A stretch of 64,000 nt of DNA. It comes from Stappia sp. 28M-7. Lineage in GTDB: Bacteria > Pseudomonadota > Alphaproteobacteria > Rhizobiales > Stappiaceae. This document shows positions 14,531-33,972 of this stretch, one piece after another (position 1 is the stretch's first letter; every line of letters starts with the position of its first letter). The DNA lies in NCBI RefSeq assembly GCF_014252955.1, contig NZ_JACMIA010000001.1:2936258-3000257 (forward strand). The letters are read 5' to 3'. The position numbers were made by a program, and so were the translations under genes. The notes beneath the pieces were generated by a model, which was given only the letters and a program-made list of their open reading frames with translations, was not told the origin of the DNA and did no database searches.

Positions 14531-14941
14531 TCAGGCCGCCTCGAAGCGGATGTCCTGCGCGCCTTCCCACAGGACCTTGCGGCCGAGCTCCGGCAGCTTG
14601 TCGAGGTTGGAGGTCAGCGTGATGAAGTGGTTGCCGGCGAGCTGGCCCATCTTCGAGGAAAAGTCGACGCCGCCATAGGCGAGCAGGATCTCCGTCTCGC
14701 TGATGCCGCCGGGATAGAGCAGGATGTGGCCCGGCGCCGGATGGCTGGTGTGGTTCTCGTAGCCGACGCCGAAGGACAGGTCGCCGAGCGGGATCCACAC
14801 GCCCTCGCCGGACCAGCGCACATGCACGATCTGCCCGGCAAAGGGCATGCGCGCCAGGAAGGCCTTGCAGGTCTCCGGCGCCTTTTCCGTCTCCAGCACC
14901 GCATCGAAGGTGAAGGGGCCGGCGGTGATCTTGATCTTCAT
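14531..14941 (-). CDS. DUF3830 family protein
   Basis: A 136-residue protein of the DUF3830 (cyclophilin-like fold) family, opening with MKIKITAGPFTFDAVLET and containing EKAPETCKAFLARMPF and HVRWSGEGVWIPL. It is the last gene of a six-gene operon that begins at the ABC permease (21645), 20 bases behind the hydantoinase. Family members often sit beside hydantoinases and amino-acid transport genes, suggesting an enzyme or binding role in that metabolism, but no activity is established. Confidence 0.8.
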   Translation of the reverse strand: MKIKITAGPFTFDAVLETEKAPETCKAFLARMPFAGQIVHVRWSGEGVWIPLGDLSFGVGYENHTSHPAPGHILLYPGGISETEILLAYGGVDFSSKMGQLAGNHFITLTSNLDKLPELGRKVLWEGAQDIRFEAA

Positions 14942-14961
14942 GGTGTTTCCTCCTTTGGACG

Positions 14962-16371
14962 TCAAAGCGGTGCGGCGCCGCGGGTGCGGGCCGAACGATA
15001 GGTGCCGTCGCCCTTGGCGCCGACGAGCGTGTTGTCTCGGACCATCACCCGGCCGCCGAGAATGACGGTGGTCGGCCAGCCGGTGACCTCCAGCCCCTCG
15101 TAGGGCGAGTAGTCGGCCCCGTCGTGCAGGTCCGCATGGCGGATGGTGCGCTTTTCCGTCGGGTCCCAGATCGCAAGGTCGGCATCGGAGCCGATGGCGA
15201 TGGTGCCCTTTTCCGGATAGAGGCCGTAGGTGCGCGCATGCGCGGTCGCCGCCAGCGAGACGAAGCGCGGCAGGTCGATCCGCCCCTTCATCACGCCTTC
15301 GGAAAAGAGGATCGGCAGCCGCGTCTCGACGCCGGGAATGCCGTTGGGGATGTGCCGGAAGCTGGTGAGACCCTTCGGATTGCGCTTGCCGCGCTCGTCG
15401 TCGTAGCGGAACGGACAATGGTCGGACGAGAACAGGTCGAACACGCCCGTCTCGATGCCGCGCCAGCACTCGGCCTGGGCCGCCTTGTCGCGCGGCGGCG
15501 GTGAGCAGACGAACTTCGCCCCCTCCCAGTCCATGCCGTCGAGATCCTCGGCCGTCAGCACCAGGTATTGCGGGCAGGTCTCGCCGACCACCTTCAGCCC
15601 GCGCGCGCGGGCCCGCGCGATCTCCTCCATCGCCTCGCCGTTGGAGACATGGACGATGACAATGGGCACATCGGCGATCTCGGCGAGTGACAGCGCCCGG
15701 TGCGTCGCCTCGCGCTCCACCGCCACGGGACGGGTGGAGGCATGGGCGCGCGGGGCGACGTCACCGGCCGCCTCGTGCCGGGCGATCAGGAAGCGGATCG
15801 CGTCCTCGTTCTCGCAATGGACCATGACGGTGGCGCCGGTCGAACGGGCGACGTCCAGCGTCTTGAGGATTTCCGCATCGCTGAGCCGCAGGTCCTCATA
15901 GGTCATGAAGACCTTGAACGAGGAATAGCCGTCGGCGGCGAGCGCCGGCAGCTCCTGGCCGAGCAGACTGTCCGTCGGGTCCGAGACGATCAGATGAAAG
16001 CTGACATCGGTGTAGCAGTTGCCCTCGGCCAGCTTGTGATAGGCGGTCAGCGCCTCGCGCATCGGCCGCCCCTTCTCCTGCAGGCAGAAGGGCATGATGG
16101 TGGTGTTGCCGCCGAACAGGGCCGAGAGCGTGCCGCTCTCGAAGTCGTCGGCCATGACGATGCCCTCGCCCGAGGGCTGCGAGACGTGGACATGGCTGTC
16201 GATGCCGCCGGGCAGCACATATTTGCCGCTCGCGTCGATCACCTCGCAATCGCCCGTCAGCGCCTCGCCGATCTGGGCGATGCGCCCGTTGCGAATGCCG
16301 ATATCGGCACGGAACACGTCCGAGGCGGTGGCGATGGTGCCGCCGCGCACGATCAGGTCGAAACGGTCCAT
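14962..16371 (-). CDS. dihydropyrimidinase/hydantoinase-type cyclic amidohydrolase
   Basis: A 469-residue binuclear-metal amidohydrolase that opens cyclic amide rings (hydantoins, dihydropyrimidines or related imides). Metal ligands are all visible: H60 and H62 (DSHVHV), the lysine to be carboxylated K153 (SSFKVFMTY), H185 (MVHCENED), H241 (VIVHVSN) and D317 (SSDHCPF). Length is normal for the family. It sits 10 bases downstream of the ABC ATPase gene, so the transporter and enzyme are probably coexpressed. The true ring substrate cannot be assigned, and an allantoinase-like role cannot be excluded. Confidence 0.9.
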   Translation of the reverse strand: MDRFDLIVRGGTIATASDVFRADIGIRNGRIAQIGEALTGDCEVIDASGKYVLPGGIDSHVHVSQPSGEGIVMADDFESGTLSALFGGNTTIMPFCLQEKGRPMREALTAYHKLAEGNCYTDVSFHLIVSDPTDSLLGQELPALAADGYSSFKVFMTYEDLRLSDAEILKTLDVARSTGATVMVHCENEDAIRFLIARHEAAGDVAPRAHASTRPVAVEREATHRALSLAEIADVPIVIVHVSNGEAMEEIARARARGLKVVGETCPQYLVLTAEDLDGMDWEGAKFVCSPPPRDKAAQAECWRGIETGVFDLFSSDHCPFRYDDERGKRNPKGLTSFRHIPNGIPGVETRLPILFSEGVMKGRIDLPRFVSLAATAHARTYGLYPEKGTIAIGSDADLAIWDPTEKRTIRHADLHDGADYSPYEGLEVTGWPTTVILGGRVMVRDNTLVGAKGDGTYRSARTRGAAPL

Positions 16372-16381
16372 GTCCGCCCCC

Positions 16382-17110
16382 TCAGTGATGCAGGATCTTG
16401 CCGAGGAAGGCCTCGGTGCGCGGGTTGTGGCGGGCGGTGAAGAACTCCTCGGTCGGGCGGTCCTCGACGATCTCGCCCTGGTCGATGAAGACCATGCGGG
16501 TGGCGACGCGGCGGGCAAAGCCCATCTCGTGGGTGACGACCATCATCGTCATGCCCTCGCTTGCCAGGGAGGTCATCACGTCCAGCACCTCGGAGATCAT
16601 CTCCGGGTCGAGCGCGGAGGTCGGCTCGTCGAACAGCATCGCCTTGGGGTTCATGGCGAGCGCACGGGCGATTGCCACACGCTGCTGCTGGCCGCCGGAC
16701 AGCTGGCCCGGATACTTGTGCGCGTGTCCGCTCATGCCGACGCGCTCCAGAAGCTCCATCGTCCTGGTGCGGGCGACCTGCTGGTTGCGGTTCAGCACGA
16801 TGCGCTGGGCCAGCATGATGTTGTTCTCGATGGTGAGATGCGGGAACAGCTCGAAATTCTGGAACACCATGCCGACCAGCGAGCGCAGCTCGGGAAGGTT
16901 GGTCTGCGGGTCGTTGACCTCGACCCCGTCGACCCGGATCGAGCCTTCCTGGATCGGCTCCAGCGCGTTGACGCACTTGATCAGGGTGGACTTGCCCGAA
17001 CCGGACGGGCCGCAGACGACGACGACCTCGCCCTTGGCAACGCTGGTCGAACAGTTCTTCAGGACGGGGAACTTGCCGTAGTACTTCGTAACTCCGGTGA
17101 TCTCGATCAT
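16382..17110 (-). CDS. polar amino acid ABC transporter ATP-binding protein
   Basis: A 242-residue GlnQ/HisP-type ATPase. Walker A is GPSGSGKS (residues 34-41), the signature LSGGQQQR (137-144) and Walker B with [12 protein letters not shown] (157-168); the H-loop histidine is in VVTHEMGFA. It powers the permease encoded at 20953-21645 in the same operon and the binding protein encoded at 24602 on the opposite strand. It begins 2 bases after the stop of the 969-residue fusion gene, so its translation is probably coupled to it. Confidence 0.94.
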
Positions 17111-17112
17111 GG

Positions 17113-20022
17113 TCACCCTCCTTGGAACCGGGAAATGGAAAAGGCCGTGAGGTCGCGGCCGGGATCGCGGCCGCGCACGAGCGCCGCCGTCAGCTGCCCG
17201 ACGATGGGGCCGAGCGTGTAGCCGTTGGATGTCACGGCATTGAAGAAGCCGGGCATGACCGGGTGCTGCCCCAGGATCGGCGCGCCGTCGATGTTGATGT
17301 TCATCGCCGCCCAGCTGCGGATCACATGCAGCTTGCGCAGGCCCGGCACCACGTGCTGGGCGACCCAGAGATTGCCCTCCAGGCTGGAAAACAGCGGGCG
17401 CGGATGGCTGTGCACGGGATCGAGGCCGGCAGTCCAGCCGCCGCCGATCAGGAAATTGCCGTTGGCCGCCTGCTTCAAGGTCAGGTGCCGGTCGGCATGG
17501 GCAACGAGATGGGAGACCGCGGGCGCGGCGGCCTCGGTCACCACCATCTGCAGCGGCGCGCCGAAGACGGGAACGTCGAGCCCGAGCATGGCGCCGATCC
17601 GCGCGGCGAAGGCACCGGCGGCATTGACGAGACGCCCGGCGCGCAAGGTGCCCCGCGAGGTCTCCACGACGAAGCCAGAGCCCTCGCGCCGGATCGCCAG
17701 AACCTCGGTGCGGTCGAACACGCGGGCGCCGGCCGCGACAGCGGCCTCCAGCACATGGCGGGTGGCGACCAGCGGATTGATCTTGCCCTCCTGCGGGCAA
17801 TAGGCCGCGCCGATCATCGCCGGCGACAGGGCCGGCTCGAGCCGGGCGAGATCCTCGCGGCCGATCACCTGGCAGTCGATGCCGTGGCTGCGCTCGACGC
17901 GGGTCTTTTCCTCCAGGAAGCGCAGATGCGCCTCGGTCTCGGCAACCATCAGCCCGCCGGTGATCTTCATCTCGAAGTCGCGGCCGAGCCGGACCTCGAG
18001 CTCCCGCCAAAGGTCGATGGAATCGCGCTGCAGCGGCAGGGTGCGGGCGGCGGCACCGCCGTCGCCTTCCGCCTTGGCGCCATGGTCGAAGGACAGCAGC
18101 TGGGCATGCAGGCTGCCGGCATTGCCGCCCGAGGCGAGCCCGCCGGGGAAGCCGCGCTCGACCACCGCAACCTCCTCCCCCGCCTCGGCGAGGAAGAGCG
18201 CGGTCGACAGGCCGGCAATGCCGGCGCCGATGACGAGCGTCGCGACCTCACGGATCGGCAGCGGTCCCGGAGCCTCCAGCGGTGGACGCTCCGGCAGCAA
18301 GGCCCGCCTGTGGCCGCCCCATTCGGGCTTCTCGAGCGCAAGCGCGGCAAGCGGCACCGGGCGCAGCGGCATCTGCGGAGCGAGCAGGCCGTTCGTCTCG
18401 TTGGCCGGACGGCCGGCAAGCGCGGTCAGCGTGCGCCCGCAATAGCGCCCCTGGCAGCGGCCCATGCCAGCGCGCGTCAGGCGCTTCAAGGTGGCGATGT
18501 CCGGCGGACCGCCGGCGGCCGTCTCGCGCAACACGCTCAAGCCGACGCTCTCGCAGCGACAGGACAGCGTGGCGCCAGCGTCGGCCTGCGCGTCCTCCGC
18601 CGGGCGGAACAGCTGCCACAGCGCCTGCTGGAAGCGGCGGGCGCGGGCAAGCCGGCGCTGCGCGGCCGGATCGGGCTCGACGCCGAGCCCGAGCTTGCGC
18701 GCAATGGCAAGGCCGGCCAGACGCCCAGCCGCCATGGCGACATGGGCGCCGCCGAAGCGCGCGGCCTCGCCGACGATATGGACGTGCGGATCGGAGCTTT
18801 CGCCGGCCTCGTCGCAATGCGCGACCAGCGTGCCGTCGCCGGCAACCACATGGGCAAGGCCCAGCAGGCGCGACAGCTCGTTGGACGGGACGAAGTCGCC
18901 GCCGACCAATACCGTATCGACCTCGAGCACCTCTTCGCCGGACGGGCCTTCGAGGCGCACCGCCTGCGCACGAGCCTCGCCCAGTACCTCCACGGCGCAG
19001 GTCTGCCAGCGGATGGAAACGCCGGCGCGCTGCAGGGCGGCGATCTCGCCCATGCCCTTCAGCGCAAGCGCCGGATCGGCCTGCAGGATGGCGATGGCAT
19101 CGCGCGGGCTCGACCAGGGCGCGCGGGCCCGGTCGGCCAGGCACACGACCTTGCCGCCATGGCGCAGGATCTCGCCGGCCACCTGGATGTTGAGCGGGCC
19201 ATTGCCGGTGATGGCGAACCGGCGCCCGGGAAGGCTGGCATAGCTGCGCAGGAGGGTCTGCGCCGCGCCCGTGGTCATGACGCCCGGCAGGGTCCAGCCG
19301 GGAAGCGCGGCCGGCCGCTCGAACGCGCCGGTGGCGATAACGAGCATGCGCGGGCGCATGTAGAAGGCGCCGTCGGGGCCGAGGCAACCGAGCACGGAAG
19401 CTCCGTCCGCCTGGCGCTCGGCGCCCCAGACCGTGACGCCGGAGAGAAGCTCCACGCCGCAGGCGCGGGCCTCGGAGACAAGGCCGGCACCGTCCTGCGC
19501 CTGCCGGTCGCGGGCGAGCGCTGCCCGCGCTTCCCCGGTTGCCGGCTGCTTGTAGAACTGGCCGCCGGCGGCGGGCCGCTCGTCGACGAGGGTGACGCTG
19601 GCACCGGCACGGGCCGCGGCGATGGCGGCGGAAAGTCCGCCCGGCCCCGCACCGACGACGAGAACGTCGACGGTGCGCGCGGGAAGCTCCGCAGGCACAG
19701 GTGCAAGATCGGAGAGCGAAGACGAGAGAATGTCGGGACGCGCAGCCTGCCGCTCGACCCGCATGCCGTCCTGCACCTTGGTCATGCAGGCGCGCTGGCT
19801 GGTGCGCCCGTCGATGGTGACGAGACAGTCGTGGCACACGCCCATGCCGCAGAAGAGCCCGCGCGAACGGCCCGCCGCATCGCGCGAGAAGGCGGAGCGC
19901 CCGCCGGCCGCAAGGGCTGCGGCGACGGACGTGCCCGGATCGACACGGTGCACCTCGCCGTCCAGATGGACGGTCACGAGGTCTGGGGCCGGCCTGGCGT
20001 TGTGCGGGGCCGCAGCGGACAT
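17113..20022 (-). CDS. single-chain fusion of all HcnABC-type amine dehydrogenase subunits
   Basis: A 969-residue protein that joins what are normally three subunits. Residues about 15-100 are a ferredoxin-like [2Fe-2S] domain (C58, C63, C66, C79: CX4CX2CX12C; HcnA-like). Residues about 115-540 are a pyridine-nucleotide-type FAD domain (GAGPGG at 124-129) ending in a BFD-like [2Fe-2S] site (C488, C490, C523, C528; HcnB/OoxA-like). Residues about 592-965 are a DAO/glycine-oxidase-like FAD domain (GAGIAG near 599; HcnC/OoxB-like). Relatives oxidise glycine, opines or D-hydroxyproline. Here it should oxidise an imported amino compound, passing electrons to the membrane chain. No internal stop or frameshift was noticed. 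Confidence 0.9.
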
Positions 20023-20038
20023 GGGCGTCTGCCTCCGG

Positions 20039-20929
20039 TCAGTTCTCGAAGCGCAGGCCGAACTGCTCGACCAGCGCCTTCATCTGCGCATCCTGCGCCG
20101 GCGGCAGCGGCAGGCGCGGCGGCAGCGGCGCGCCGGTCGCAAAGCCCATATGCGAGAGCAGCGACTTCGTGCCGGCAACATAGGCCTGGCCGCCGACCGC
20201 CTGGATGATCGGCAACCACTCCAGATAGAGCGCGCGGGCCGCATCGTAATCCTTGTCGTCGGCCGCGAGCGTGAAGATGCGCGACATCGGCCCCGGCGCG
20301 ACGTTGGAGGCGACCGCCACCCAGCCCTGCGCGCCCATCACGAAGGATTCGAACCCGAGGATGCCGCCGAACGGCACCATGCGGTCGCCGGCAAGGCGCA
20401 CGATGTCGCGGATACGCGTCACCTCGAGAGTGGATTCCTTGACGTAGTCGCAGCCGTCGATCTCGGCGATGCGGGCCAGCAGCTCCGGCTTCATGTCGAC
20501 ATTCGACGTCGCCGGGTTGTTGTAGACCATGATCGGGATCGAGATCGCCGCGGCGATGGTGCGGTAATGCTCGACCAGCTCGTCGTCGGTGGGGGTGGAG
20601 TAGAACGGCGGGATGATCATCACGCCGTCGGCGCCCATCTCCTGCGCCTTGCGGGCGAGCCGGACGCATTCGCGCGTGTCCTCCGCGCCGGTGCCGATCA
20701 GCACCGGCACCCGGCCGGCGGCGGTGTCGATCACCGTGCGCGCCACCGCGTCCTTGTCCTCTTCGGACAGAGACAGGAACTCGCCGGTGGAGCCGAGCGG
20801 GATGAGGCCGTGCACGCCTTCGCGGATCTGCCAGTCGGTGAAGGCCGCGAGTGCTGAAAGGTCGGGCCTGCCGTTGCCGTCGACCGGCGTGATCATCACG
20901 GTGAAGACACCGCGAAATTTCGTAGACAT
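20039..20929 (-). CDS. DHDPS/NAL family lyase or deaminase
   Basis: A 296-residue TIM-barrel class I aldolase of the dihydrodipicolinate synthase/N-acetylneuraminate lyase family. The Schiff-base lysine is K164 (DYVKEST), the barrel tyrosine Y136 (VYNNP), and GSTGE (46-50) is the pyruvate-binding motif. True DapA is unlikely because the gene lies in a catabolic operon between a permease and an oxidoreductase. Relatives in such settings are 2-keto acid aldolases or deaminating dehydratases. The gap to the fusion gene is only 16 bases. Substrate unknown. Confidence 0.88.
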   Translation of the reverse strand: MSTKFRGVFTVMITPVDGNGRPDLSALAAFTDWQIREGVHGLIPLGSTGEFLSLSEEDKDAVARTVIDTAAGRVPVLIGTGAEDTRECVRLARKAQEMGADGVMIIPPFYSTPTDDELVEHYRTIAAAISIPIMVYNNPATSNVDMKPELLARIAEIDGCDYVKESTLEVTRIRDIVRLAGDRMVPFGGILGFESFVMGAQGWVAVASNVAPGPMSRIFTLAADDKDYDAARALYLEWLPIIQAVGGQAYVAGTKSLLSHMGFATGAPLPPRLPLPPAQDAQMKALVEQFGLRFEN

Positions 20930-20952
20930 CTTGAAGTTACCCTTATGAAAGT

Positions 20953-21645
20953 TCAGCGCTTTTCCGTGAGACCCACGGCGGCGGTCGACTGGCCGAACCG
21001 GCGTTCGATGCGTCGCTGGACGAAGTCCCAGAGCGTTGTCAGGATGAGGTAGTAGAGGGCCGCGACCGCGAAGAGCTCCAGCACCATGAACTTCTCCTGG
21101 ATGAGCACCTGCGTGCGGCGCAGCAGCTCTTCCATGGAGATGACGGAGGTGACGGAGGTGGTCTTGAGCAGGCCGTTCACCGAGTTGCCGAGCGGCGGGA
21201 TGATGACCTTGAAGGCCTGCGGCATGATGATGTAGCGCATGATCTGGCGCTCGGTCATGCCCAGCGCCCGGGCGGCCCGGGACTGGCCTTCCGGCACGGC
21301 CTCGATGCCCGCGCGGATGATCTCGGCGAGATAGGCCGCCTCGTTGAGCGCAAGGCCGATCAGGGCCGCCTCCACCACCGAGAAGCGGATGCCGAGCTGC
21401 GGCAACGCGGTGTAGATGACGATGAGCTGCACCAGGAGCGGCGTGCCGCGGAACAGCCAGATGTAAAACCAGGCGATGCCGCGCACCACCTGCAGCTTCG
21501 ACCGGCGCATCAGGGCGATGAGGAAGCCGAGGAACAGGCCGCACAACAACGAGACGCAGGTCAGCCAGATTGTCGTGAAGACGCCTTCGAGAATGTAGGC
21601 GTTGGTGAGATAGTTGAAGAAACCTGACCAGTTCCAGACTGACAT
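20953..21645 (-). CDS. polar amino acid ABC transporter permease
   Basis: A 230-residue HisM/GlnP-type permease with about five helices and the cytoplasmic EAA loop (EIIRAGIEAVPEGQSRAARALGM, about residues 107-129) that docks the ATPase. It is the first gene of the operon running to 14531. Only one permease gene is present where most amino-acid systems have two, so it probably works as a homodimer. The ATG at 21645 matches the family start; the longer upstream frame is not credible. The shared GGTATACC element lies about 205 bases upstream. Confidence 0.92.
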   Translation of the reverse strand: MSVWNWSGFFNYLTNAYILEGVFTTIWLTCVSLLCGLFLGFLIALMRRSKLQVVRGIAWFYIWLFRGTPLLVQLIVIYTALPQLGIRFSVVEAALIGLALNEAAYLAEIIRAGIEAVPEGQSRAARALGMTERQIMRYIIMPQAFKVIIPPLGNSVNGLLKTTSVTSVISMEELLRRTQVLIQEKFMVLELFAVAALYYLILTTLWDFVQRRIERRFGQSTAAVGLTEKR

Positions 21646-21989
21646 GGCGGGCCTTTCTATCGGGTGCGGCAGGAGGCGAGCGGCACCGCCGCCCCGAAGG
21701 AAGCAGGCCGGAGACCGGCTGCAGGCTTTCGGGGACGGAACGGGTCGAACGACATGCAAGCGCCAGCGACAGGGTCGCGCCCTTCCAAGAAGGAAGAGAC
21801 AACGAGGTGAGATGGGGCCACGGGTTGGTTTGCTTTTCCCGCATTCATTTGGTATACCGATTTAATACACAGCAGCAAGGCCTGCGCAAGTCCCTTTGTC
21901 GGACCTGTGCACGCCTCTCCCTCACAGCCCTGCTAAGGCAGCTTCGAAAGGCACCGATGTCGCCCGTCTCGTCCCGCCCGGCGGGGATC
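21646..21989. other. long leader region upstream of operon A
   Basis: A stretch of 344 bases between the permease start and the end of the GntR gene at 21990. It contains the TGGTATACCG/TAATACA element (21850-21869) and, probably, the promoter of the minus-strand operon. No gene, repeat or RNA gene is supported here. Confidence 0.5.
21850..21869. promoter_or_regulatory. candidate GntR operator, copy 1 (operon A)
   Basis: TGGTATACCG, three bases, then TAATACA. The core GGTATACC is a perfect palindrome of the kind bound by FCD-type GntR repressors. The same element with identical spacing occurs at 24535-24554, before the genes for the matching binding protein. It lies about 205 bases upstream of the permease start. 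Confidence 0.65.
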
Positions 21990-22634
21990 TCAATAGGTGG
22001 AAAGAACCCGCTGGCGCACCTTTTCAAGGTGCTGGGTCATGCACTGGCGCGCAGCCTCAGGATCGCGCGCGGCAAGCGCGGCCAGGATCTCTCGATGGTC
22101 CTCGAGGCCCGGCTTGCGCTGTGCCAGCCGCCGCTGCCGTTCGAAGATCGTCGTGTAGCGGCGCATCTGGACGATGGTCTCGGCCATGAACGGATTGCCG
22201 CTCGCCTCGCCCAGCCCCTGGTGCAGCGCATCGTCGAAGCGCCAGATCATCGCCGGATCGGGATCGGGATCCTCGTCAATGGCGTGCAGCATGGCGGCAA
22301 GCTCGGCGAGCTTGCTCTCGGTGATCTCGGGACAGGCGAGCGCGGCCGCCGTCGGCTCAACAAGCAGGCGCATGGTGAGGCTGTTGAGATAGTCCTTCAA
22401 GGTGATGACGCGCACGGTGAGCATGCTCTTGCCGTTGCGCACCAGGAGCCCCTGCCCTTCCAGCCGGCCGAGCGCATCGCGCATCGGCGAACGCGACACG
22501 CCGAGGCGAGCGGCCAGCCGCCGCTCCTGGACGACAACGCCTCCGGCCAGCTGCGCCGACAGGATCTCCTCCAGCAGGGCGCGATAGGTCTCGTCCGCGA
22601 GACTCGTCTCCGTGCCGGTTTCCTGTTCGGCCAT
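21990..22634 (-). CDS. GntR family regulator, FCD (FadR) subfamily
   Basis: A 214-residue regulator with an N-terminal GntR winged HTH (about residues 12-75: RLAARLGVSRSPMRDALGRLEGQGLLV) and a C-terminal all-helical FCD effector domain (about 85-205) with metal-site candidates in RFDDALHQ and the later DHREIL. Start ATG 22634 has GGAG seven bases upstream. It is divergent from another GntR gene at 22756 and lies upstream of operon A. It, or its neighbour, probably reads the GGTATACC sites. Confidence 0.9.
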   Translation of the reverse strand: MAEQETGTETSLADETYRALLEEILSAQLAGGVVVQERRLAARLGVSRSPMRDALGRLEGQGLLVRNGKSMLTVRVITLKDYLNSLTMRLLVEPTAAALACPEITESKLAELAAMLHAIDEDPDPDPAMIWRFDDALHQGLGEASGNPFMAETIVQMRRYTTIFERQRRLAQRKPGLEDHREILAALAARDPEAARQCMTQHLEKVRQRVLSTY

Positions 22635-22755
22635 GTGCCGTCTCCACTTCACTATTTGACGATCATGACTGCTATGACGCATGCCTCTTGCCAAGGAAAG
22701 CATTTCGCATGAGGTCGAGCCCGCGCAATACCACGCCTTCGGAGGGGCAAGCCAA

Positions 22756-23433
22756 GTGAGCGTTACGGAGGAAAACAGCGGCGGCGCGTCCGCCCGCGGA
22801 AGCCACAGCCTCGCGGCGCTGGCCTACAACGCCGTGTCGGACATGATTCGCCACCGCAAGCTCGGCGGAGGCCATGTCATCGTCGAGGCGCGGCTCGCCG
22901 AGACGCTGGGCGTCTCGCGCACCCCCTTGCGCGAAGCCCTGCAGCGGCTGGAAGGCGAAGGCCTCGTCCACAAGGGCGACGGGCGCAACTACGTGGTGCG
23001 CCATGTCGATATCGGCGAGTACATCCAGAGCCTGAAGCTGCGCCTGCTGATCGAGCCGGAAGCGGCCGTGCAGGCCATGGGGAGCATTCCCAGCCGCAAG
23101 CTGATCGAGGTGCGCCGCGAGATCGACGACCTGATGGGCACGACCAGCTACCACACGGATGCGCACTGGTTCTCGGACGACCATCTGCACGGGCTGATCA
23201 TCGACCATTGCGGCAACGACGTGATGGCCCAGGTGCTGCGCAACCTGCGCGCCACGACGCGGCTGTTCGAGATCGGCCAGCTGAAGGATCGCCTGACACC
23301 GGATTCGACCGAGCACCTGATGATCATCGACGCGCTTCAGCGGCAGGACGCCGACGACGTGCGCCGGACGGTGGCCAACCACATCGTCAGCCTGATCGAC
23401 TTCGCCCGCAAGCACCTCAACATGACCGACTGA
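22756..23433 (+). CDS. GntR family regulator, FCD (FadR) subfamily
   Basis: A 225-residue FCD-type GntR regulator. The HTH covers about residues 20-85 (RLAETLGVSRTPLREALQRLEGEGLV), with the FCD domain after it (SDDHLHGLIIDHCGN and STEHLMIIDAL supply likely metal or ligand contacts). The start is uncertain: GTG at 22756 follows GGAGGGG with an 8-base spacer and is preferred to the ATG at 22681, which lacks a ribosome site. It is paralogous in architecture to the divergent gene at 21990. Two regulators back to back suggest two inducers or a cascade. Confidence 0.87.
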   Translation: MSVTEENSGGASARGSHSLAALAYNAVSDMIRHRKLGGGHVIVEARLAETLGVSRTPLREALQRLEGEGLVHKGDGRNYVVRHVDIGEYIQSLKLRLLIEPEAAVQAMGSIPSRKLIEVRREIDDLMGTTSYHTDAHWFSDDHLHGLIIDHCGNDVMAQVLRNLRATTRLFEIGQLKDRLTPDSTEHLMIIDALQRQDADDVRRTVANHIVSLIDFARKHLNMTD

Positions 23434-23453
23434 AGTACGGCCCCTCGCCCGCC

Positions 23454-24482
23454 TCACACCAGCATCAGCAGCCGCGCCGGCGTTTCCTTCAGCAGCAGAT
23501 CGATCTCGGATTGCACAAAGCCCCGGTCGCGCATCAGGGGAATGACGTTGCGCAGCATGTGCGCATAGCCGTGGCCGCCATGGCACTGCAGGCGCGAACG
23601 GGTGCAGATGTCATGCGAAAGAACGACATTGCCGCCGAGCCCTTCCTCGAACAGCCGCCGCACCGCATGGATGCGCATGTAGTCGGTCGGCAGGTCGGCG
23701 ACCGCCATCCAGTATTGCGACTGCTCGATGCCGAAGAAGTCGTATTCCACGACGCAGCCGCGCCGCGCCAGCGCGACGACCTGCTCCACGCTGTCATAGG
23801 TGCGGTCCATGTGGTCGATGATGACGCGGGAAAGGTCGGCGCCTGCGGCATGGAGGACGTCGAGGATCTCGTGCGGGGCATCGGGATGGCGGCCGGGATG
23901 GACGGTGATCGCCGCGCCGGTGCGCTGCTGGGCAATGGCCCCGGCCGCAAGCGAGCGCCGCTCGAACGGTGTCAGAGGCCAGGAGCAGCCGATCTCGCCG
24001 ATGATCCCGCAGCGGATATCCGTGCCCCAGGCGCCTTCCTCGACCTGCGCCGTGACGATATCGGCCAGCGCCTCCTGAGGCAGCGCCAGCGTCGCCTCGT
24101 CCTGATAGCCCTCGGTGTAGAAGCCGGCGCCGAGCACCACATGCACGCCGGTCTCGGCCGAGATCGCCGCAAGCCCCTCGGGATCCGGGCAAAGCCCGCC
24201 GGTGGTCATCTCGACGATGGCGCCGCCGCCCGCCTGCGCGAAGCGGCGGGTCTCGGAGGTCGCGATGGCAAGGTCCTGGAGCCGGTGATTGCCGTGATAG
24301 TCGTTCGGCCGGTAGGTGACGTCGAAGACGTTCTCCAGCGTGATCTCGACCTCCGGCAGGCCTGCGTTTCGCCGCGCCGGCGGGGTCAGGTCGCACAGCA
24401 GGTGCTCGTGCATCAACGTGTAGCCGAGCGCCTCCGGCGCGACCGGTCCGCACACTGTCTGAACCGTCCCCGCACGCGCCAT
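23454..24482 (-). CDS. phosphotriesterase family (PHP-like) metal hydrolase
   Basis: A 342-residue amidohydrolase-superfamily protein. Metal ligands are H25 and H27 (LMHEHL), H195, H224 and D291 (LSHDICTR). The bridging residue is glutamate E163 (GEIGCS) rather than the carboxylated lysine of true phosphotriesterases, as in the E. coli PHP subgroup. Natural substrates of such proteins are more likely lactones or esters than phosphotriesters. It diverges from the binding-protein operon at 24602, sharing its control region and the GGTATACC element, so it probably belongs to the same pathway. Confidence 0.88.
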   Translation of the reverse strand: MARAGTVQTVCGPVAPEALGYTLMHEHLLCDLTPPARRNAGLPEVEITLENVFDVTYRPNDYHGNHRLQDLAIATSETRRFAQAGGGAIVEMTTGGLCPDPEGLAAISAETGVHVVLGAGFYTEGYQDEATLALPQEALADIVTAQVEEGAWGTDIRCGIIGEIGCSWPLTPFERRSLAAGAIAQQRTGAAITVHPGRHPDAPHEILDVLHAAGADLSRVIIDHMDRTYDSVEQVVALARRGCVVEYDFFGIEQSQYWMAVADLPTDYMRIHAVRRLFEEGLGGNVVLSHDICTRSRLQCHGGHGYAHMLRNVIPLMRDRGFVQSEIDLLLKETPARLLMLV

Positions 24483-24534
24483 GCCACTCTCTCCGAGTTC
24501 CGTTGATTTTGACCGCTTGCAGACCGCATATAAA

Positions 24535-24554
24535 TGGTATACCGTCCTAATACA
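24535..24554. promoter_or_regulatory. candidate GntR operator, copy 2 (operon B / PTE-like gene)
   Basis: TGGTATACCG, three bases, then TAATACA, identical in both blocks and spacing to the site at 21850-21869. It lies 53 bases upstream of the phosphotriesterase-like start and 47 bases upstream of the binding-protein start, so one regulator could control both directions. Confidence 0.68.
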
Positions 24555-24601
24555 ATATAAAAACAGGCCTCATCAAACCAACCAGAGCGGAAGATAACCT
24601 C

Positions 24602-25477
24602 ATGAAAAACAATGGATTCGATCGCATCCTGAGCGCCGGAATTTCGCGTCGCAGCGTGCTTCTGGGCGCCGCGGCCACTGGCGCCGGTCTCGCCCTCGGC
24701 AGCCGGGCGGCCTTTGCCCAGCCGGCTCTCGCCCCGCCGCACATCATCAAGCCGGGCACGCTCGTGATGAGCACCAACCCGACGCTGCCCCCGCTCCAGT
24801 TCGTCGACGACAAGGGCGAAGTGCAGGGCATGCGCATCGAGCTCGGTAAGGAGATCGCCTCCAAGCTCGGCCTGACGCCGGAATACATCAAGGTCGAGTT
24901 CGCGGCGATGGTGCCGGGCCTGGCCGCCGGCCGCTGGGACATGATCAACACCGGCATCTTCTGGACCGAAGAGCGCTCGAAGCTGATGTACATGGTGCCC
25001 TACGAGCGCGCCGCCGTGAGCTTCCTCGTTCCCAAGGGCAACCCGAAGAACATCACCAAGTGGGAAGAGCTGGCCGGCCTGTCCGTCGGCGTGGAGCTCG
25101 GCGGCATCGAGGAGCGCCGCACCCGCGAAGTCGACACCATGCTCAAGAATGCCGGTCTCGAGGGCATCACCGTCCGCGTGTTCAACAACTTCTCGGAAGC
25201 CTTCCAGGCCCTGCGCGCCGGCCAGGTCGACGCGGCGACCTCGATCGACGCGACCGCGAAGTTCCTCGAGGACCGCGACGACTTCACCCGCGCCATCGCC
25301 GGCCTGTTCCCGCAGACCGCGACCTTCGCCTTCGCCGACAAGACGCTGGCGGAATCGGTCGTCGGCGTGCTGAACGACCTGCGCGCCAGCGGCTTCTACG
25401 ACGAGCTGTTCACCCGCTACGGCGTGCTGACCATCGAGGAAGAGAAGTTCGCGATCAGCGGCCCCGGACCGGCTTAA
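24602..25477 (+). CDS. polar amino acid ABC transporter solute-binding protein (Tat signal)
   Basis: A 291-residue periplasmic binding protein of the SBP_bac_3 family. The N-terminus carries a twin-arginine signal (SRRSVL, R16-R17) and a likely cleavage site at AFA-Q (39/40). The mature protein shows the usual TLPPLQFVDDKGEVQG opening and two alpha/beta lobes. It serves the permease (20953-21645) and ATPase (16382-17110) of operon A, with which it shares an upstream element. It is the first gene of an operon with an aspartate-dehydrogenase-like gene and an M20-like gene. Confidence 0.93.
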   Translation: MKNNGFDRILSAGISRRSVLLGAAATGAGLALGSRAAFAQPALAPPHIIKPGTLVMSTNPTLPPLQFVDDKGEVQGMRIELGKEIASKLGLTPEYIKVEFAAMVPGLAAGRWDMINTGIFWTEERSKLMYMVPYERAAVSFLVPKGNPKNITKWEELAGLSVGVELGGIEERRTREVDTMLKNAGLEGITVRVFNNFSEAFQALRAGQVDAATSIDATAKFLEDRDDFTRAIAGLFPQTATFAFADKTLAESVVGVLNDLRASGFYDELFTRYGVLTIEEEKFAISGPGPA

Positions 25478-25528
25478 CCCCGGACCGGCGCGCGGCCAGA
25501 CAGACGCTCTGACGCGCAACACTCTCCC

Positions 25529-25561
25529 GGACCTGCCAGGTGCCCTGCGCCCGGCAGGTCC
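25529..25561 (+). terminator. stem-loop after the binding-protein gene
   Basis: GGACCTGCC at 25529-25537 pairs perfectly with GGCAGGTCC at 25553-25561, with a 15-base loop and no T run. Such hairpins behind the first, binding-protein gene of transport operons commonly stabilise that part of the mRNA or partly stop transcription, allowing more binding protein than downstream enzyme. Confidence 0.5.
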
Positions 25562-25625
25562 TGCGGCAGGCGGTGCCCCATCACCGCCGCCGCCCCCCTT
25601 TCCCTGATACGGTCTGGACATCGTG

Positions 25626-26441
25626 ATGAGCACCCGCCCCCGGGACAGGCTCGGGGTCATCGGCTTCGGGCCCATCGGCAGACGACTTGCCGCCCGCTTC
25701 CGCGATGCGGACGACGGACCGCAGCTTGCAGCCCTTCTCGTGCGCGAGCGCCAGGCGAGCGATGCGGCCGCCCTCGCCCCCGATGCTGCGATCTGCACCG
25801 ACATCGACAGTTTCCTGAAAGCCCGGCCGACCGTCGCGGTGGAATGCGCCTCGGCCGCAACGCTGGTCGAGGCGGCGCCCGCCCTGCTCGCCTCCGGCTG
25901 CGATATCCTGCCGCTGTCGCTCGGCGCCTTCGCCGACCGCGATGCGGAAACCCTTCTGAAGCAAGCCGCCGCCAAGGGCCCGGGACGCATCGAGGTGCCT
26001 GCGGGAGCACTGGGCTCCATCGGCTTCCTGACCGCCGCCCGCGAGAACGGGCTTGCCCGCGTCGAGATGCGCATCGGCTATCCGCTGGAGCGCTGGCAGA
26101 TGATGGGGGCGGACCGCTTCGTCACTCTCAAGGGCCTGCGCGAACCGACCGTCTTTCTGGAGGCGAGCGCCCGCGAGATCGCCGCGCAGTTTCCCGGCCA
26201 TCTCAATGTCACCATCGGCGTCGCGCTGGCCGGTCTCGGCCTCGACGACACCCAGGTAACGCTGCTCGCCGATCCAACCGTTACCCAGGCCTGGTTCGAG
26301 CTGGAGGCCCACTCCGCCTCCGGGCCCGTGCATCTTCGCGTCGACGGACGGGACGCCCCCGTTCACCAGGATCCGCTCGACTACACAACGTTCAGCGTCA
26401 TCCGCCTCTTGCAGCGCCGCTCGGCGGCCATTGCAACGTGA
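25626..26441 (+). CDS. aspartate dehydrogenase-like (NadX/DUF108) oxidoreductase
   Basis: A 271-residue protein with an N-terminal Rossmann fold (GVIGFGPIG, about residues 11-19) and a C-terminal DUF108 domain, the layout of L-aspartate dehydrogenase. Conserved family features include VPAGALGSIGFLTAARENGL and the late LNVTIGVALAGLGLDDT. It would interconvert an L-amino acid and its imino/oxo acid with NAD(P). No nadA or nadC is nearby, so a catabolic role on the imported compound is more likely than NAD biosynthesis. Start at ATG 25626, two codons after a possible GTG. Confidence 0.85.
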   Translation: MSTRPRDRLGVIGFGPIGRRLAARFRDADDGPQLAALLVRERQASDAAALAPDAAICTDIDSFLKARPTVAVECASAATLVEAAPALLASGCDILPLSLGAFADRDAETLLKQAAAKGPGRIEVPAGALGSIGFLTAARENGLARVEMRIGYPLERWQMMGADRFVTLKGLREPTVFLEASAREIAAQFPGHLNVTIGVALAGLGLDDTQVTLLADPTVTQAWFELEAHSASGPVHLRVDGRDAPVHQDPLDYTTFSVIRLLQRRSAAIAT

Positions 26442-26473
26442 CGGCGGACAAAAAGACCGACAGGGAGACCACC

Positions 26474-27790
26474 GTGACATCGATCCTGCAGGACATCGCC
26501 GACGCTTCGGCGCGCGAACGTGCGCGCATTCTCGACGGGCTGCGGACCTATGTCCGCGCCGGCAAGGATGGCGAGGCCGCGGTGCAGAGCCTGTTCGCCG
26601 AGACCGCCGAGGCGCGCGGCTGCAGCGTCGAGGCCAGCTCCTATAATCCCGCGGATGTGCGCATGATCGAGGAGTTCGCCGGCGAGGCGGCCATCGATCC
26701 GCAGGCCCGCACCAGCATCATCGCGCGTTGCAAGGGCACCGGAAACGGACGCAGCCTGATCCTTTTCGCCCATCCCGACGGCGAGCCGGTCACGGGCACC
26801 GACCGCTGGCGGCACGATCCGTTCGCCGGCGAGGTCGACAACGGCCGGCTCTACGGCTGGGGCGTTGCCGACGATCTCTCCGGCGTTGCCGCCGGCCTGC
26901 AGGCGCTGGAGTTGCTCGCCTCGCTCGGCCTGCGCCCGGACGGCGATGTGCTCATCGCCAGCACGCCAAGCAAGCGACATGCGCGCGGCGTGTCGCGGCT
27001 GATGCAGGAGGGAATGACGGCGGACGCGGCGCTCTACCTGCACCCGGCCGAGTCCGGCGTCGGGCTGCGCGAGATCAAGGCGCTGGCCTCCGGTCAGGTC
27101 GAGTTTCGGGTGATCGTCGAGGGACAGCATCCGCCGACGACCGAGCCGCTCCAGACCGCCTTCGGGCATCTGGGCGTCAACGCCATCGACAAGGCGTTCG
27201 TCGTCTGGGAGGCGCTGAAGAAGCTCGACGCGCGGCGCGGCGAAGAGGTGCACCACCCCGCGCTGCATGGCGAGGTCGGCCGCTCGACCAACATCATGAT
27301 GTCCTACATCTCGGCCGGCGATCCGAAGCGGCTCGCCCGTCTTGCGACCAGCTGCACGCTCGGCGCTGCTCTCGCCTTCCCGCCGCCGGAGAAGCTTTCG
27401 GACGTCTGCGCGCAGATCGAGGCGGCGGTGGCCGAGGCGGCCGCAAGCGATCCCTGGCTTTCGGAAAACCCGCCACGCATCGTCTGGGACAGCGGCACGA
27501 CAGGCGCCGAAGTACCGGGCGACCATCCGCTGCTGCTCGCCGCCCATGAGGCGATCCGCGGCGTCTGCGGTCTGGAAGCGCATGTGAACCCGATGCACAC
27601 GGGCAGCGACATCCGCAACCCGATGATCCAGAAGAACATTCCGACCATCGGCATCGGCCCGCTGTGCGGCGATCTCAGCCAGAATGACGGCGTCGACGAA
27701 TGGGTCGACACTGAGGATCACGTGCGCTTCGTCGGCGCGGTTGCCGGCATCATCGCGCAGTGGTGCGGAGTTTCGAAACTGCAGGCCTGA
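26474..27790 (+). CDS. M20-like peptidase-family protein with altered active site
   Basis: A 438-residue protein with the M20/ArgE-DapE fold. Metal ligands H100 and D102 (FAHPDGEP), D133 (GWGVADDLSG) and the final H375 (MHTGSD) are visible. At the place of the catalytic EE motif the sequence reads STPSKRHARG (about residues 163-172), with no glutamate. It may therefore not be an ordinary hydrolase, or may use E193 (LHPAES). The GTG at 26474 has GGGAG six bases upstream; an in-frame GTG at 26438 overlapping the previous stop is the alternative. It is the third gene of the binding-protein operon. Confidence 0.8.
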   Translation: MTSILQDIADASARERARILDGLRTYVRAGKDGEAAVQSLFAETAEARGCSVEASSYNPADVRMIEEFAGEAAIDPQARTSIIARCKGTGNGRSLILFAHPDGEPVTGTDRWRHDPFAGEVDNGRLYGWGVADDLSGVAAGLQALELLASLGLRPDGDVLIASTPSKRHARGVSRLMQEGMTADAALYLHPAESGVGLREIKALASGQVEFRVIVEGQHPPTTEPLQTAFGHLGVNAIDKAFVVWEALKKLDARRGEEVHHPALHGEVGRSTNIMMSYISAGDPKRLARLATSCTLGAALAFPPPEKLSDVCAQIEAAVAEAAASDPWLSENPPRIVWDSGTTGAEVPGDHPLLLAAHEAIRGVCGLEAHVNPMHTGSDIRNPMIQKNIPTIGIGPLCGDLSQNDGVDEWVDTEDHVRFVGAVAGIIAQWCGVSKLQA

Positions 27791-27846: not shown

Positions 27847-28188
27847 TCAGTCGCAGGCAGCGGTGACGATGATCTCGACCTTGAGGTCGGCGCGGGCGAG
27901 CTTGGCCTCGCCGCAGGCACGGGCGGGCGCGCAGCCGGCCGGCACCCAGGCATCCCAGACCGAGTTCATCTCGACGAAGTCGTTCATGTCCGCCAGCCAG
28001 ACGATGGCCTGCAGCATCTTCTCGCGCGAGGAGCCGGCGCGATCGAGCAGCGCCTCGACCCGGGCAAGGCACTCGCGGGTCTGGTCCGCGACGGTTTCGC
28101 CCTCGCCGACCTGGCCGCACAGATAGACAACGCCGTTGTGCTTGACGATCTTGCTCATGCGCGTCGCCACATCAATGCGTTCGATCAT
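27847..28188 (-). CDS. RidA family protein
   Basis: A 113-residue member of the RidA/YjgF family, which hydrolyses reactive imine or enamine intermediates. The conserved arginine lies in LARADLKVEIIVTAA. It is the last gene of the TRAP-dehydrogenase operon; its ATG overlaps the preceding oxidoreductase stop by 4 bases. Placement directly behind an amine dehydrogenase fits a role in clearing the imine that the dehydrogenase makes. It may belong to one of the non-archetypal Rid subgroups. Confidence 0.9.
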   Translation of the reverse strand: MIERIDVATRMSKIVKHNGVVYLCGQVGEGETVADQTRECLARVEALLDRAGSSREKMLQAIVWLADMNDFVEMNSVWDAWVPAGCAPARACGEAKLARADLKVEIIVTAACD

Positions 28189-29585
28189 TCCGTAGTCTCC
28201 TTGCTTTGCGAGGCGGCCAGTGCCGCCAGTTCGCCCAATGTCACCGGCTTCAACGGCGGCCGGATGCGGTAGTACCCGGTCTCGTCCTGGGTGCGCCCGT
28301 TCGCGTCGGCCAGCAGCTCCGTCACGGTCAATCCGCAATAGCGCCCCTGGCACGGTCCCATGCCGACGCGGCCGAAGGCCTTGGTCTGGTTGGGACCGAG
28401 GCACCCGATGGAGGCATAGCGCCTGATGTCGCCCGCCGTCACCTCCTCGCAGCGACACACCAGCGTGTCATCCCCCGGAAGCAGCGCGCCGGCAAAGGGC
28501 GGATAGGCACGATCGAGGAACGGACGCACCGCCAACTCGCGCGACAGTGCCGCCTGCAAGGGGCGCGCGGCGCGATCCCGCTCGCCAGGGCTCAGGCGGC
28601 CGAGGTCGCAGGCAATGGCCAGCGCAGCGAGCCGGCCGGAAAGCGCGGCTGCCCCGGCCCCGCCGATGCCGCCGCCATCGCCCGCGATGAAGACTGTCTC
28701 CAGTCCCGCCGCGCGGCCCCAGAGGTCGCGCTCGGGCAAGAAGGCACGCTGAGCATCGTCCCAGCGGTGCGGAACGCCGATGGAGCGGGCGACCTGGGTG
28801 TTGGGCACGACGCCGTGATGCAGCAGCACGGTCGAACAGTCGATGCAATGGGTGCGCCCGCCGGCGGTAAAGCGCAGTGCCTGTGCCCGCGAGGCCCCGT
28901 CCACGGCAAGTTCGCTCGCAGCGGTGTAGCGGCGCACGCCGGCGCGGCGCAACTCGGCCAGCAGGCCGAGCCCCTTGGCAAGGGCCCGCCAGCCGCGCAG
29001 CGCACCGCCGATGTGGCGCAGCGCGGCCAGCCCGTCGGAAAAGGTCTGCGTCTCGACCAGGGCGAGCGGCGGCGTGCCGGCCCGGCACATCTGCGCCGCC
29101 ACGAGATAGAGCAGCGGCCCACAGCCGGCGAGCACCGCCCCCTCGCAGACGATGCCCGATTGCTTGAGCAGGATCTGCGCGGCACCTGCCGTGATGACGC
29201 CGGGCAGCGTCCAGCCGGGGATCGGCATCGGCCGTTCCAGCGCGCCGGTCGCGATCAGCAGCCGGCGTCCCTCGAGCAGCTCCGCCTCGCCGTCGAGCGT
29301 GAAGGCAACGCGGCGCCCCTCCTCCACCTGCCAGGCGGTGGCGCCTGTCAGATGGCGGATATTCGGATGCGGCAGGTCGCGGACGAGCTCCGCACCCTTG
29401 AGATAGTCGGCCCCGAGGATCGCGGCGCGGCTCTCTCCCGCCCGCTCCACATCGCGGTAGATCTGGCCGCCGGCGCGCGGCTGCTCGTCGAGCAGCACCA
29501 CCGCAAGGCCGGCCTCCGCCGCCGTCCGGGCAGCGGCCATGCCCGCGGGTCCCGCGCCCAGGATGACAAGATCGGCCTCACGCAT
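28185..29585 (-). CDS. HcnB/OoxA-like FAD oxidoreductase subunit
   Basis: A 466-residue pyridine-nucleotide-type FAD protein. The FAD motif GAGPAG is at residues 10-15, a second dinucleotide motif (VLAGCGPLLY) near 161-170, and a C-terminal BFD-like [2Fe-2S] site uses C377, C379, C412 and C417 (CxC...CX4C). It corresponds to the central domain of the 969-residue fusion protein. With the genes at 29578 and 29858 it forms a complete three-subunit amine/opine dehydrogenase of the HcnABC type. It overlaps the [2Fe-2S] gene by 8 bases. Confidence 0.91.
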   Translation of the reverse strand: MREADLVILGAGPAGMAAARTAAEAGLAVVLLDEQPRAGGQIYRDVERAGESRAAILGADYLKGAELVRDLPHPNIRHLTGATAWQVEEGRRVAFTLDGEAELLEGRRLLIATGALERPMPIPGWTLPGVITAGAAQILLKQSGIVCEGAVLAGCGPLLYLVAAQMCRAGTPPLALVETQTFSDGLAALRHIGGALRGWRALAKGLGLLAELRRAGVRRYTAASELAVDGASRAQALRFTAGGRTHCIDCSTVLLHHGVVPNTQVARSIGVPHRWDDAQRAFLPERDLWGRAAGLETVFIAGDGGGIGGAGAAALSGRLAALAIACDLGRLSPGERDRAARPLQAALSRELAVRPFLDRAYPPFAGALLPGDDTLVCRCEEVTAGDIRRYASIGCLGPNQTKAFGRVGMGPCQGRYCGLTVTELLADANGRTQDETGYYRIRPPLKPVTLGELAALAASQSKETTE

Positions 29586-29883
29586 CCCCGTCCCTCCCCG
29601 CGGCCGGCATCGCGATCTCCATGCCCGCGCCGACCTCGCACATGCAGGCCTGGCGGGTGACGCCGTCGATCTCCACCAGGCAGTCGAAGCAGGCGCCCAT
29701 CATGCAGAACGGGGCGCGCGGCGCGCCGGAAACGGGCGTGCGGCGAAACGGGGTGACGCCGGCGGCCAGCAGCTCGGCGGCAAGATTTCCACCCTCGCGC
29801 AGCATCAGGTCCTGGCCGGAAAAGCGGACGCGGACCCTTGCCCCCTCCGGCTCCAGCTCACGAAAGGTCGAAGCGGTCTTCAC
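29578..29883 (-). CDS. HcnA-like (2Fe-2S)-binding subunit
   Basis: A 101-residue ferredoxin-like subunit with C60, C65, C68 and C80 (CX4CX2CX11C), matching the N-terminal domain of the fusion protein apart from one residue in the last spacing. It should carry electrons within the dehydrogenase complex. The start is a GTG at 29883 with GGAGG six bases upstream, inside the end of the DAO gene (26-base overlap); upstream in-frame residues do not fit the family. Confidence 0.88.
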   Translation of the reverse strand: MKTASTFRELEPEGARVRVRFSGQDLMLREGGNLAAELLAAGVTPFRRTPVSGAPRAPFCMMGACFDCLVEIDGVTRQACMCEVGAGMEIAMPAAGRDGDA

Positions 29884-30958: not shown

Positions 30959-31026
30959 GACGATGTCCGATCAGATTGAAAAGGATGCCGGGCAGCGCGG
31001 CGCCGCCCGGCAGGCAAGAGGCAAGG

Positions 31027-32016: not shown

Positions 32017-32071
32017 GGTACCTCCTCTTTGGGTTTCTAAAAGGTCGGGTTTCTTCTTGTTGTTGTCGGGG

Positions 32072-33855: not shown

Positions 33856-33940
33856 GACGGTCTTGCGAGCGCCACAGCAACCTCCATTGCAGTTGCCATT
33901 GTCGGATTTGCTATGGCATAAAATCAAATTAGAATTACTG

Positions 33941-33965
33941 CTATATCCATAGAGTGGGTCTATAG
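33941..33965. promoter_or_regulatory. dyad in dctQ/LysR divergent promoter
   Basis: CTATA (33941-33945) and TATAG (33961-33965) form a short inverted repeat ending 7 bases before the LysR start, in an AT-rich stretch unlike its surroundings. It is a possible LysR binding site; the arms are only five bases. Confidence 0.3.
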
Positions 33966-33972
33966 GTCGGGC

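Follow-up and report, generated by a model that had tools for sequence, protein, structure and literature searches.

Gene content of the locus

We analysed a 64,000-nucleotide stretch of the genome of Stappia sp. 28M-7 (contig NZ_JACMIA010000001.1, positions 2,936,258 to 3,000,257; hereafter the window, with coordinates counted from its first letter), in which two operons, designated A and B, encode the parts of an amino-acid-type ABC importer and a set of putative catabolic enzymes, and in which the same operator-like element precedes both. Operon A, on the minus strand, comprises, in this order, genes for an ABC transporter permease (PERM; 20953–21645, TIGR01726) with no binding-protein gene in front, a DHDPS-family lyase (20039–20929, family match), a 969-residue dehydrogenase in which Fer2_4, Pyr_redox_2 and DAO domains are fused (FUS; 17113–20022, domain matches), an amino-acid-type transporter ATPase (16382–17110, profile matches), a dihydropyrimidinase/hydantoinase family protein (14962–16371) and a DUF3830 protein (14531–14941; PF12903, 2.8e-32). 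Operon B, on the plus strand, encodes the amino-acid-type, family-3 binding protein SBP_B (24602–25477, SBP_bac_3), an aspartate-dehydrogenase-like protein with an Asp_DH_C fold domain (AspDH-like; 25623–26441) and an M20-family hydrolase (26474–27790, with an alternative start at 26438). Between the operons lie GntR1 (21990–22634, minus strand), GntR2 (22681–23433, plus strand) and a gene for a PTE-like protein of the amidohydrolase superfamily (23454–24482, minus strand), the last divergent from operon B. Three Stappia records contain fusion proteins that are 96, 95 and 92% identical to FUS.

An earlier note, made from the letters of this DNA, had assigned the permease and ATPase to operon A, the only binding protein to operon B and two divergent FCD-type GntR genes to the interval between them. 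Gene calls and domain matches agree: both regulators match PF00392 (44.6 bits for GntR1 and 46.2 for GntR2, cut-off 27) and PF07729 (91.4 and 56.4 bits, respectively, cut-off 24.3).

A shared operator-like element

The window contains exactly two copies of the sequence that the earlier note had singled out, TGGTATACCG-N3-TAATACA. They lie at 21850–21869 and 24535–24554, both on the plus strand and with 0 mismatches, and no copy was encountered in 100 dinucleotide-preserving shuffles. With up to three mismatches allowed, only these two places were found in the 5.13-Mb genome, in which the reversed pattern, used as a control, gave one match. The claim of an identical element with identical spacing before both operons is thus borne out. 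Alignment of related loci (see below) revealed that these 20 bp belong to a longer dyad of 30 bp, YGYAT-N5-TGGTATACCR-N5-ATRCR, the left arm of which (CGCAT, at 21840 and 24525) had been overlooked and is conserved. The 30-bp pattern, too, has only two places in the genome, both of them perfect matches (the control gave 1+1 when up to three mismatches were allowed).

Site A (21840–21869, minus strand) lies upstream of operon A and reads TGTAT-N5-CGGTATACCA-N5-ATGCG on its strand; site B (24525–24554, minus strand), with the same 30-bp element, lies 2.7 kb away between the PTE-like gene and operon B. The element points the same way with respect to the PTE gene as it does with respect to operon A, and site B thus falls into the divergent promoter region of the PTE and SBP_B genes. 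From the end of the element to the gene start there are 194 bp for the permease, 47 bp for SBP_B and 42 bp for PTE.

The TGGTATACCA core is an AT-rich palindrome with TKGT/ACMA boxes, with GT and AC 2 nt apart. These features define FadR-subfamily operators, and the 2-nt spacing occurs in some of their groups (PMC4494728, Suvorova et al. 2015). The GTAT-like arms are 11 bp away from the inner half-sites. This layout of the 30-bp element has a precedent, as sites of the GntR family can have additional, weaker half-sites at 7–12 nt from their centre (PMC4494728). Terminator-like matches around the sites (3 vs 2.1 expected) were also recorded. Between the two Stappia GntR genes, no core-like match was found that could serve as an autoregulatory element. 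Among 47 such divergent regions, TGGTATGCCA/G was present in six (four from Aureimonas, L044 and L045), and weaker core-like matches with two mismatches in four (L011, L012, L017 and L049).

Conservation of the element in related loci

Related loci were collected by a search with the fusion protein, from which the best 80 of 175 relatives were taken (FUS is therefore present in 80/80 by construction). Scanning with the alphaproteobacterial pattern covered 60 of these loci (54 plus six further ones); in the other 20, all Burkholderiales, the FUS|DHDPS divergent regions were read by eye instead. Upstream of the operon A genes the element was found in 50 of the 54 loci, that is, in every one with matches to both GntR1 and GntR2; no good match was obtained in L043, L048, L051 and L053. 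It occupies the same place in Stappia, Nitratireductor, Agrobacterium, Rhizobium, Martelella, Aureimonas and Azospirillum. Core classes were set by hand from matches with up to four mismatches, and 45 of the 50 are exact for a main class: 24 carry TGGTATACCA or CGGTATACCA and 21 carry TGGGATCCCA. The others are TGGGATACC[A/G] (L029, L031 and L049), TGGTATTCCA (L040) and CGGTATACCA with weak arms (L041). The Agrobacterium vitis plasmid pAt (L122), typed as conjugative, also carries operon A in full, including a binding-protein gene, together with the two GntR genes; this fits a scattered distribution.

Site B was present in all seven loci in which the AspDH/M20 genes adjoin PTE and the GntR pair (L003, L004, L005, L011, L013, L014 and L030), three of which (L013, L014 and L030) have no SBP_B. 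When the window was scored with a matrix built from 15 unique operon-A sites of the GTATAC class from outside Stappia, the positions 21840 (48.2 bits) and 24525 (23.2 bits) came out on top, followed by their own reverse readings, an overlapping match (-1.2 bits) and, with -5.3 bits, the next independent site. In the betaproteobacterial loci (among L055–L082), the DHDPS|FUS divergent region mostly contains tandem GTATAC repeats approximately 11 bp apart, and mostly a single FCD-GntR match is present.

Several observations weigh against so simple a picture. Around the two sites, the search for a sigma-70-like promoter consensus found none. Among the six further loci scanned only L076 matched, with four mismatches, and its GntR1 and GntR2 matches are weaker (40% and 44%), which brings the loci with both GntR matches that carry the element to 50 of the 51 scanned. 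In L032, L035 and L054, operon B adjoins a third GntR-like gene and has only a site with three to four mismatches; in L043 and L048 operon B genes are present but no full element could be recognised; and no second site was detected in L050, where the PTE-like gene alone stands beside the GntR pair and 3,277 bases are N.

Could the element have arisen by chance or by recent duplication and lack any regulatory role? There are only two copies in the genome, and the control yields approximately one match at three mismatches. However, the shuffles gave none, and its recurrence before the operon A genes in seven genera, from Stappia to Azospirillum, already contradicts this explanation, which we consider extremely improbable. 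The earlier proposal of one regulon is strengthened by a cross-species matrix that ranks exactly the two sites of the window first and by the persistence of the element across relatives; as judged from these comparisons, a conserved two-site FCD-GntR regulon is a well-supported prediction.

Which GntR protein reads the element

Residues 37 and 53 of GntR1 vary with the core. They are E/D in the window and in 24/24 GTATAC loci, and Q/H in 20/21 GGATCC loci and 3/3 GGATAC loci; the sole GGATCC exception (L054, with an odd N/Q entry) has an apparently broken gene. In our alignment, E37 and D53 appear to correspond to Glu34 and Glu50 of FadR, for which electrostatic bonds with Arg35, Arg45 and Arg49 are listed (PMC4494728, Table 1). 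The recognition helix of GntR2, SRTPLREAL, is common to both core classes, with L changed to M or I in five loci of the GTATAC class. GntR1 is favoured on the core because its residues 37 and 53 change with it while the recognition helix of GntR2 stays the same. Among 65 columns of the DNA-binding domain, five separate the classes in GntR1. Further searches, aimed at additional independent events of this covariation, covered 385 genomes of the class with SBP_B and FUS (2/385 each, strict limits), 397 genomes of the order with GntR1 (5/397) and 15 of one family (1/15). They added one new GntR1 lineage, G714 (L131, L132 and L135), as well as loci of G188 without GntR1 matches and three same-genus loci. 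In L132, GntR1 has E/D and the element a perfect TGGTATACCA core with one good arm, and no GntR2 match was found in the 6.6 kb upstream that were examined.

Some observations tell against this assignment. In the GntR1 tree (midpoint-rooted, with L054 left out as its GntR1 reading frame looks broken), the Q/H state forms one clade, so that the covariation with the core counts as a single event; L040, with GntR1 E/A and the core GTATTC, is a possible second one. The GntR1 match of L041 is only 34% identical. GntR2, too, has class-separating columns (2/65: A46/S and H97/R), and L053 has a GntR2 match, no GntR1 and still a GGTATACC core, from which GntR2 may read the core as well. The L054 GntR1 was itself seen as two matches with a garbled N-terminal part in the alignment.

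The single event, the class-separating columns of GntR2 and L053, and the use of TKGT/ACMA boxes by FCD proteins as a group (PMC4494728), would suit another reading, namely that the element is recognised by GntR2, by the two GntR proteins alike or by a regulator from another locus, and that GntR1 is not its main reader. Against it stand L132, where a perfect core accompanies GntR1 with no GntR2 match in the region covered, and the change with the core of just those GntR1 residues that align with FadR Glu34 and Glu50, the GntR2 recognition helix remaining constant; we regard it as somewhat unlikely. A composite operator, with GntR1 on the central palindrome and GntR2, with its unchanging recognition helix, on the flanking half-sites, the two jointly gating an importer in which gene loss had exchanged the receptor, would draw on L048, in which a GntR2-like match without a GntR1 match accompanies arms TGTAT and ATGCG that are kept and a core that is changed. 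L053 speaks against it, and the idea appears speculative and improbable. By these comparisons, GntR1 remains a better candidate than GntR2 and probably reads the core of the element.

A putative catabolic core with optional enzymes

Gene presence in the 80 loci was scored at our own thresholds. Operon B genes are absent beside most related clusters (AspDH-like in 13/80, PTE in 13/80 and M20 in 20/80 loci), and the hydantoinase gene was found in 55/80. Among the 43 loci in which the ATPase and DUF3830 genes stand close together on one strand, the hydantoinase is intact in 25; in the other 18 (L005, L016, L017, L019, L020, L022, L023, L024, L025, L032, L034, L035, L037, L038, L039, L052, L054 and L061) it is missing or reduced, with an ATPase–DUF3830 gap of 45–409 bp and at most pieces of the gene. 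End pieces are in place in L020, L022, L023 and L024 (short in the first two), which suggests a deletion there, and the gene is absent even within Stappia, in L005. 'Remnant' matches in L005, L034 and L052 were short and chance-like, and these loci were counted as lacking it. Fitch parsimony on the FUS tree gave eight changes between intact and not intact, a count that pools all non-intact states and does not separate gain from loss.

In L048, from a Devosia metagenome-assembled genome, the binding protein, permease, DHDPS, FUS, ATPase, M20, AspDH-like and PTE-like genes follow in a row on one strand; an extra open frame between DHDPS and FUS was taken to be M20-like, as in L045. This co-directional run favours a single pathway. 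Of the earlier proposal that the whole set forms one regulon for one substrate, the regulon is upheld and the single substrate gains from the L048 run, but membership of the whole set is loosened by the optional operon B and by a hydantoinase intact in only 25/43 loci. The importer, lyase, dehydrogenase and DUF3830 would form the core, and the hydrolases and the AspDH-like protein may be optional front ends for precursors of one amino-acid-like compound.

By sequence, the hydantoinase belongs to the dihydropyrimidinase/D-hydantoinase family (PRK13404, 716.3 bits vs a cut-off of 647; TIGR02033, 526.2 vs 393.25). The AspDH-like protein contains the Asp_DH_C domain and stays below the equivalog/subfamily cut-off for aspartate dehydrogenase (best 168.2 vs 177, NF009828). 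The closest solved structures to the PTE-like protein (23454–24482) are 9efa/9efb, 'phosphotriesterase-related protein' (4.8e-77), which are nearer to it than organophosphate hydrolases. FUS scored below the cut-off of each NCBIfam family among the best 25 of 69 matched, so its substrate cannot be named from the family. A heterotetrameric sarcosine oxidase was considered and rejected, as the SoxA and SoxB scores are far below their cut-offs (113.4 vs 1164 and 111.2 vs 529.45). Flavin dehydrogenases of the Fer2/Pyr_redox/DAO type, akin to the FUS modules, carry names such as opine and hydroxyproline.

In the convergent neighbour of operon B (27847–34893), the dehydrogenase architecture of FUS was noticed again in split form, with DAO at 29858–30958, Fer2 at 29578–29958 and Pyr_redox with SO_alpha_A3 at 28185–29585. 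The region also contains a RidA-family gene, a DctP/DctM TRAP transporter and a LysR gene, and is probably a separate amino-acid system.

A probable single transporter from two operons

The importer is of the polar-amino-acid type, with SBP_bac_3 at 98.2 bits (cut-off 26.4) and the HEQRo-type permease profile TIGR01726 at 101.2 bits (cut-off 42.2). Its ATPase is closest to GlnQ, below the cut-off (310.7 vs 379), and the ectoine importer EhuABCD was rejected, all four components being below cut-off (EhuA 266.2/345.4, EhuB 66.0/190.9, EhuC 147.4/196.95 and EhuD 145.6/205.2). A structure model of SBP_B (predicted local distance difference test score, pLDDT, 86.6) matches arginine/glutamine-type binding proteins. 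What we take to be the carboxylate-binding Arg of this fold aligns with R125 of SBP_B. The residue that is presumably the amino-group Asp aligns ambiguously, and we therefore name no ligand.

A binding-protein gene lies directly upstream of the permease (within 900 bp, same strand) in 75 of the 78 loci with a permease (L049 and L071 had no permease match in the piece examined), and the three exceptions are the three Stappia loci. No binding-protein match was found between GntR1 and the permease in the window or in G002, G006 and G012 of the same genus. The binding proteins of operon A in relatives (SBP_A) and SBP_B form separate clades, and both occur together in L011, L035 and L054. The Stappia genome contains no copy of SBP_A: the best match to a relative's SBP_A is SBP_B (55%), and the matches that come after SBP_B are 29%, 30% and 23% identical. 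The genome search thus gave no second binding protein of the SBP_B kind. Between site A and the permease, tblastn with the SBP_A reading frames of relatives detected no convincing remnant, the best matches (E 1.5e-4 and weaker) being to the element region upstream of the binding-protein start and those to parts of the protein having E values of at least 0.025. In the GntR1 tree, Stappia falls within a set of lineages that have retained SBP_A; the simplest reading is therefore that SBP_A was lost in Stappia, and the split of the transporter between operons would be secondary.

SBP_A and SBP_B share 69 invariant positions out of 242 (27 of 83 binding-protein sequences, window included) and the stretches NPTLPP.Q, INTGI and GVE.GG.EE (37 of 83), which would be consistent with a similar ligand. 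The earlier claim of one transporter from two operons therefore stands as the likeliest reading, in which SBP_B, as the sole close binding protein in the genome, would serve the operon-A permease. L043 and G188 count against this pairing, as there the SBP_B-type protein lies beside a permease of its own, 59–60% identical to PERM.

The same two loci, and the absence of operon B genes beside most of the 80 operon-A clusters, would be expected if the regulator were shared and the substrates separate, SBP_B working with a permease elsewhere and the operon-A permease being idle or otherwise served. Yet L011, L035 and L054 have SBP_B without its own permease in the locus and with operon A present, SBP_B is the only close binding protein found in Stappia, and both gene sets are joined in the co-directional run of L048. 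Moreover, site B is kept in L013, L014 and L030 even though their operon B lacks a binding protein. On balance we hold separate substrates to be unlikely and retain the pairing of SBP_B with the operon-A permease.

Proposed regulon and comparison with known systems

We propose, with a probability of approximately 70%, that the locus is a local two-site FCD-GntR regulon for an importer and a catabolic route for one amino-acid-like compound, in which SBP_A was lost and SBP_B came to serve the permease. At two promoter regions, that of operon A and that shared by the divergent PTE gene and operon B, GntR1 (perhaps with GntR2) would occupy the palindrome GGTATACC at the centre of the element, its binding assisted by half-sites that lie one helical turn further out; it would likely act as a repressor released by a carboxylate inducer. 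The genes would supply an ABC importer of the amino-acid type together with the core enzymes of catabolism, a flavin dehydrogenase and a DHDPS-type lyase, and the optional amide-cleaving and dehydrogenase front ends (hydantoinase, M20, PTE-like and AspDH-like) would probably release or channel the compound from different precursors. In Stappia, the loss of the operon-A binding-protein gene would have left the co-regulated paralogue SBP_B to work with the operon-A permease.

With its regulon and gene set, the locus opens to clean tests a catabolic route of the amino-acid type that has relatives in Rhizobiales and Burkholderiales. It also exemplifies an importer operon that has no binding-protein gene itself and stands beside a co-regulated paralogue. 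The variable presence of the hydantoinase, against a background of operon genes that persist, helps to separate the core of the pathway from its optional parts, and the two natural operator classes (GGTATACC and GGGATCCC) with matching GntR1 residues constitute a ready comparison of specificity.

As an FCD-GntR regulon the system is of a known kind, and its gene set was not found described in the literature searched. Neither the substrate nor the combinations of DUF3830 or Stappia with hydantoinase returned a related paper in the open-access PMC literature, where the string TGGTATACCA gave no title on bacterial regulation among the matches listed; the parts of PMC4494728 covered describe no regulon with this gene set. 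With the FadR/FCD regulons presented there, Stappia shares FCD-GntR genes, the TKGT/ACMA palindrome, sites in divergent promoters and flanking half-sites; unlike them, it has two adjacent FCD genes per element and strong conservation of both outer arms. Sarcosine-type (SoxA/SoxB-like) dehydrogenases consist of the same Fer2, Pyr_redox and DAO modules, which in Stappia are all contained in one 969-residue chain.

Atu1419 is a tetrameric FCD regulator that represses several genes of one catabolic cluster through a 10-bp palindrome, with looping proposed between two sites (PMC7797058). The Stappia system resembles it in the FCD type, the 10-bp palindrome and the catabolic cluster, and differs in genes and effector. 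For the transporter, the nearest likeness is arginine uptake in Escherichia coli, in which HisJ and ArgT work with HisQMP2, and ArtJ and ArtI, as is supposed, with ArtQMP2, and in which ArgR is the common regulator of the separate transcription units artJ and artPIQM (PMC6640053). Common to both are paralogous binding proteins, one permease/ATPase complex, separate units and a common regulator. Unlike the Art system as described there, Stappia has no binding protein in the permease operon and keeps only that of the other operon.

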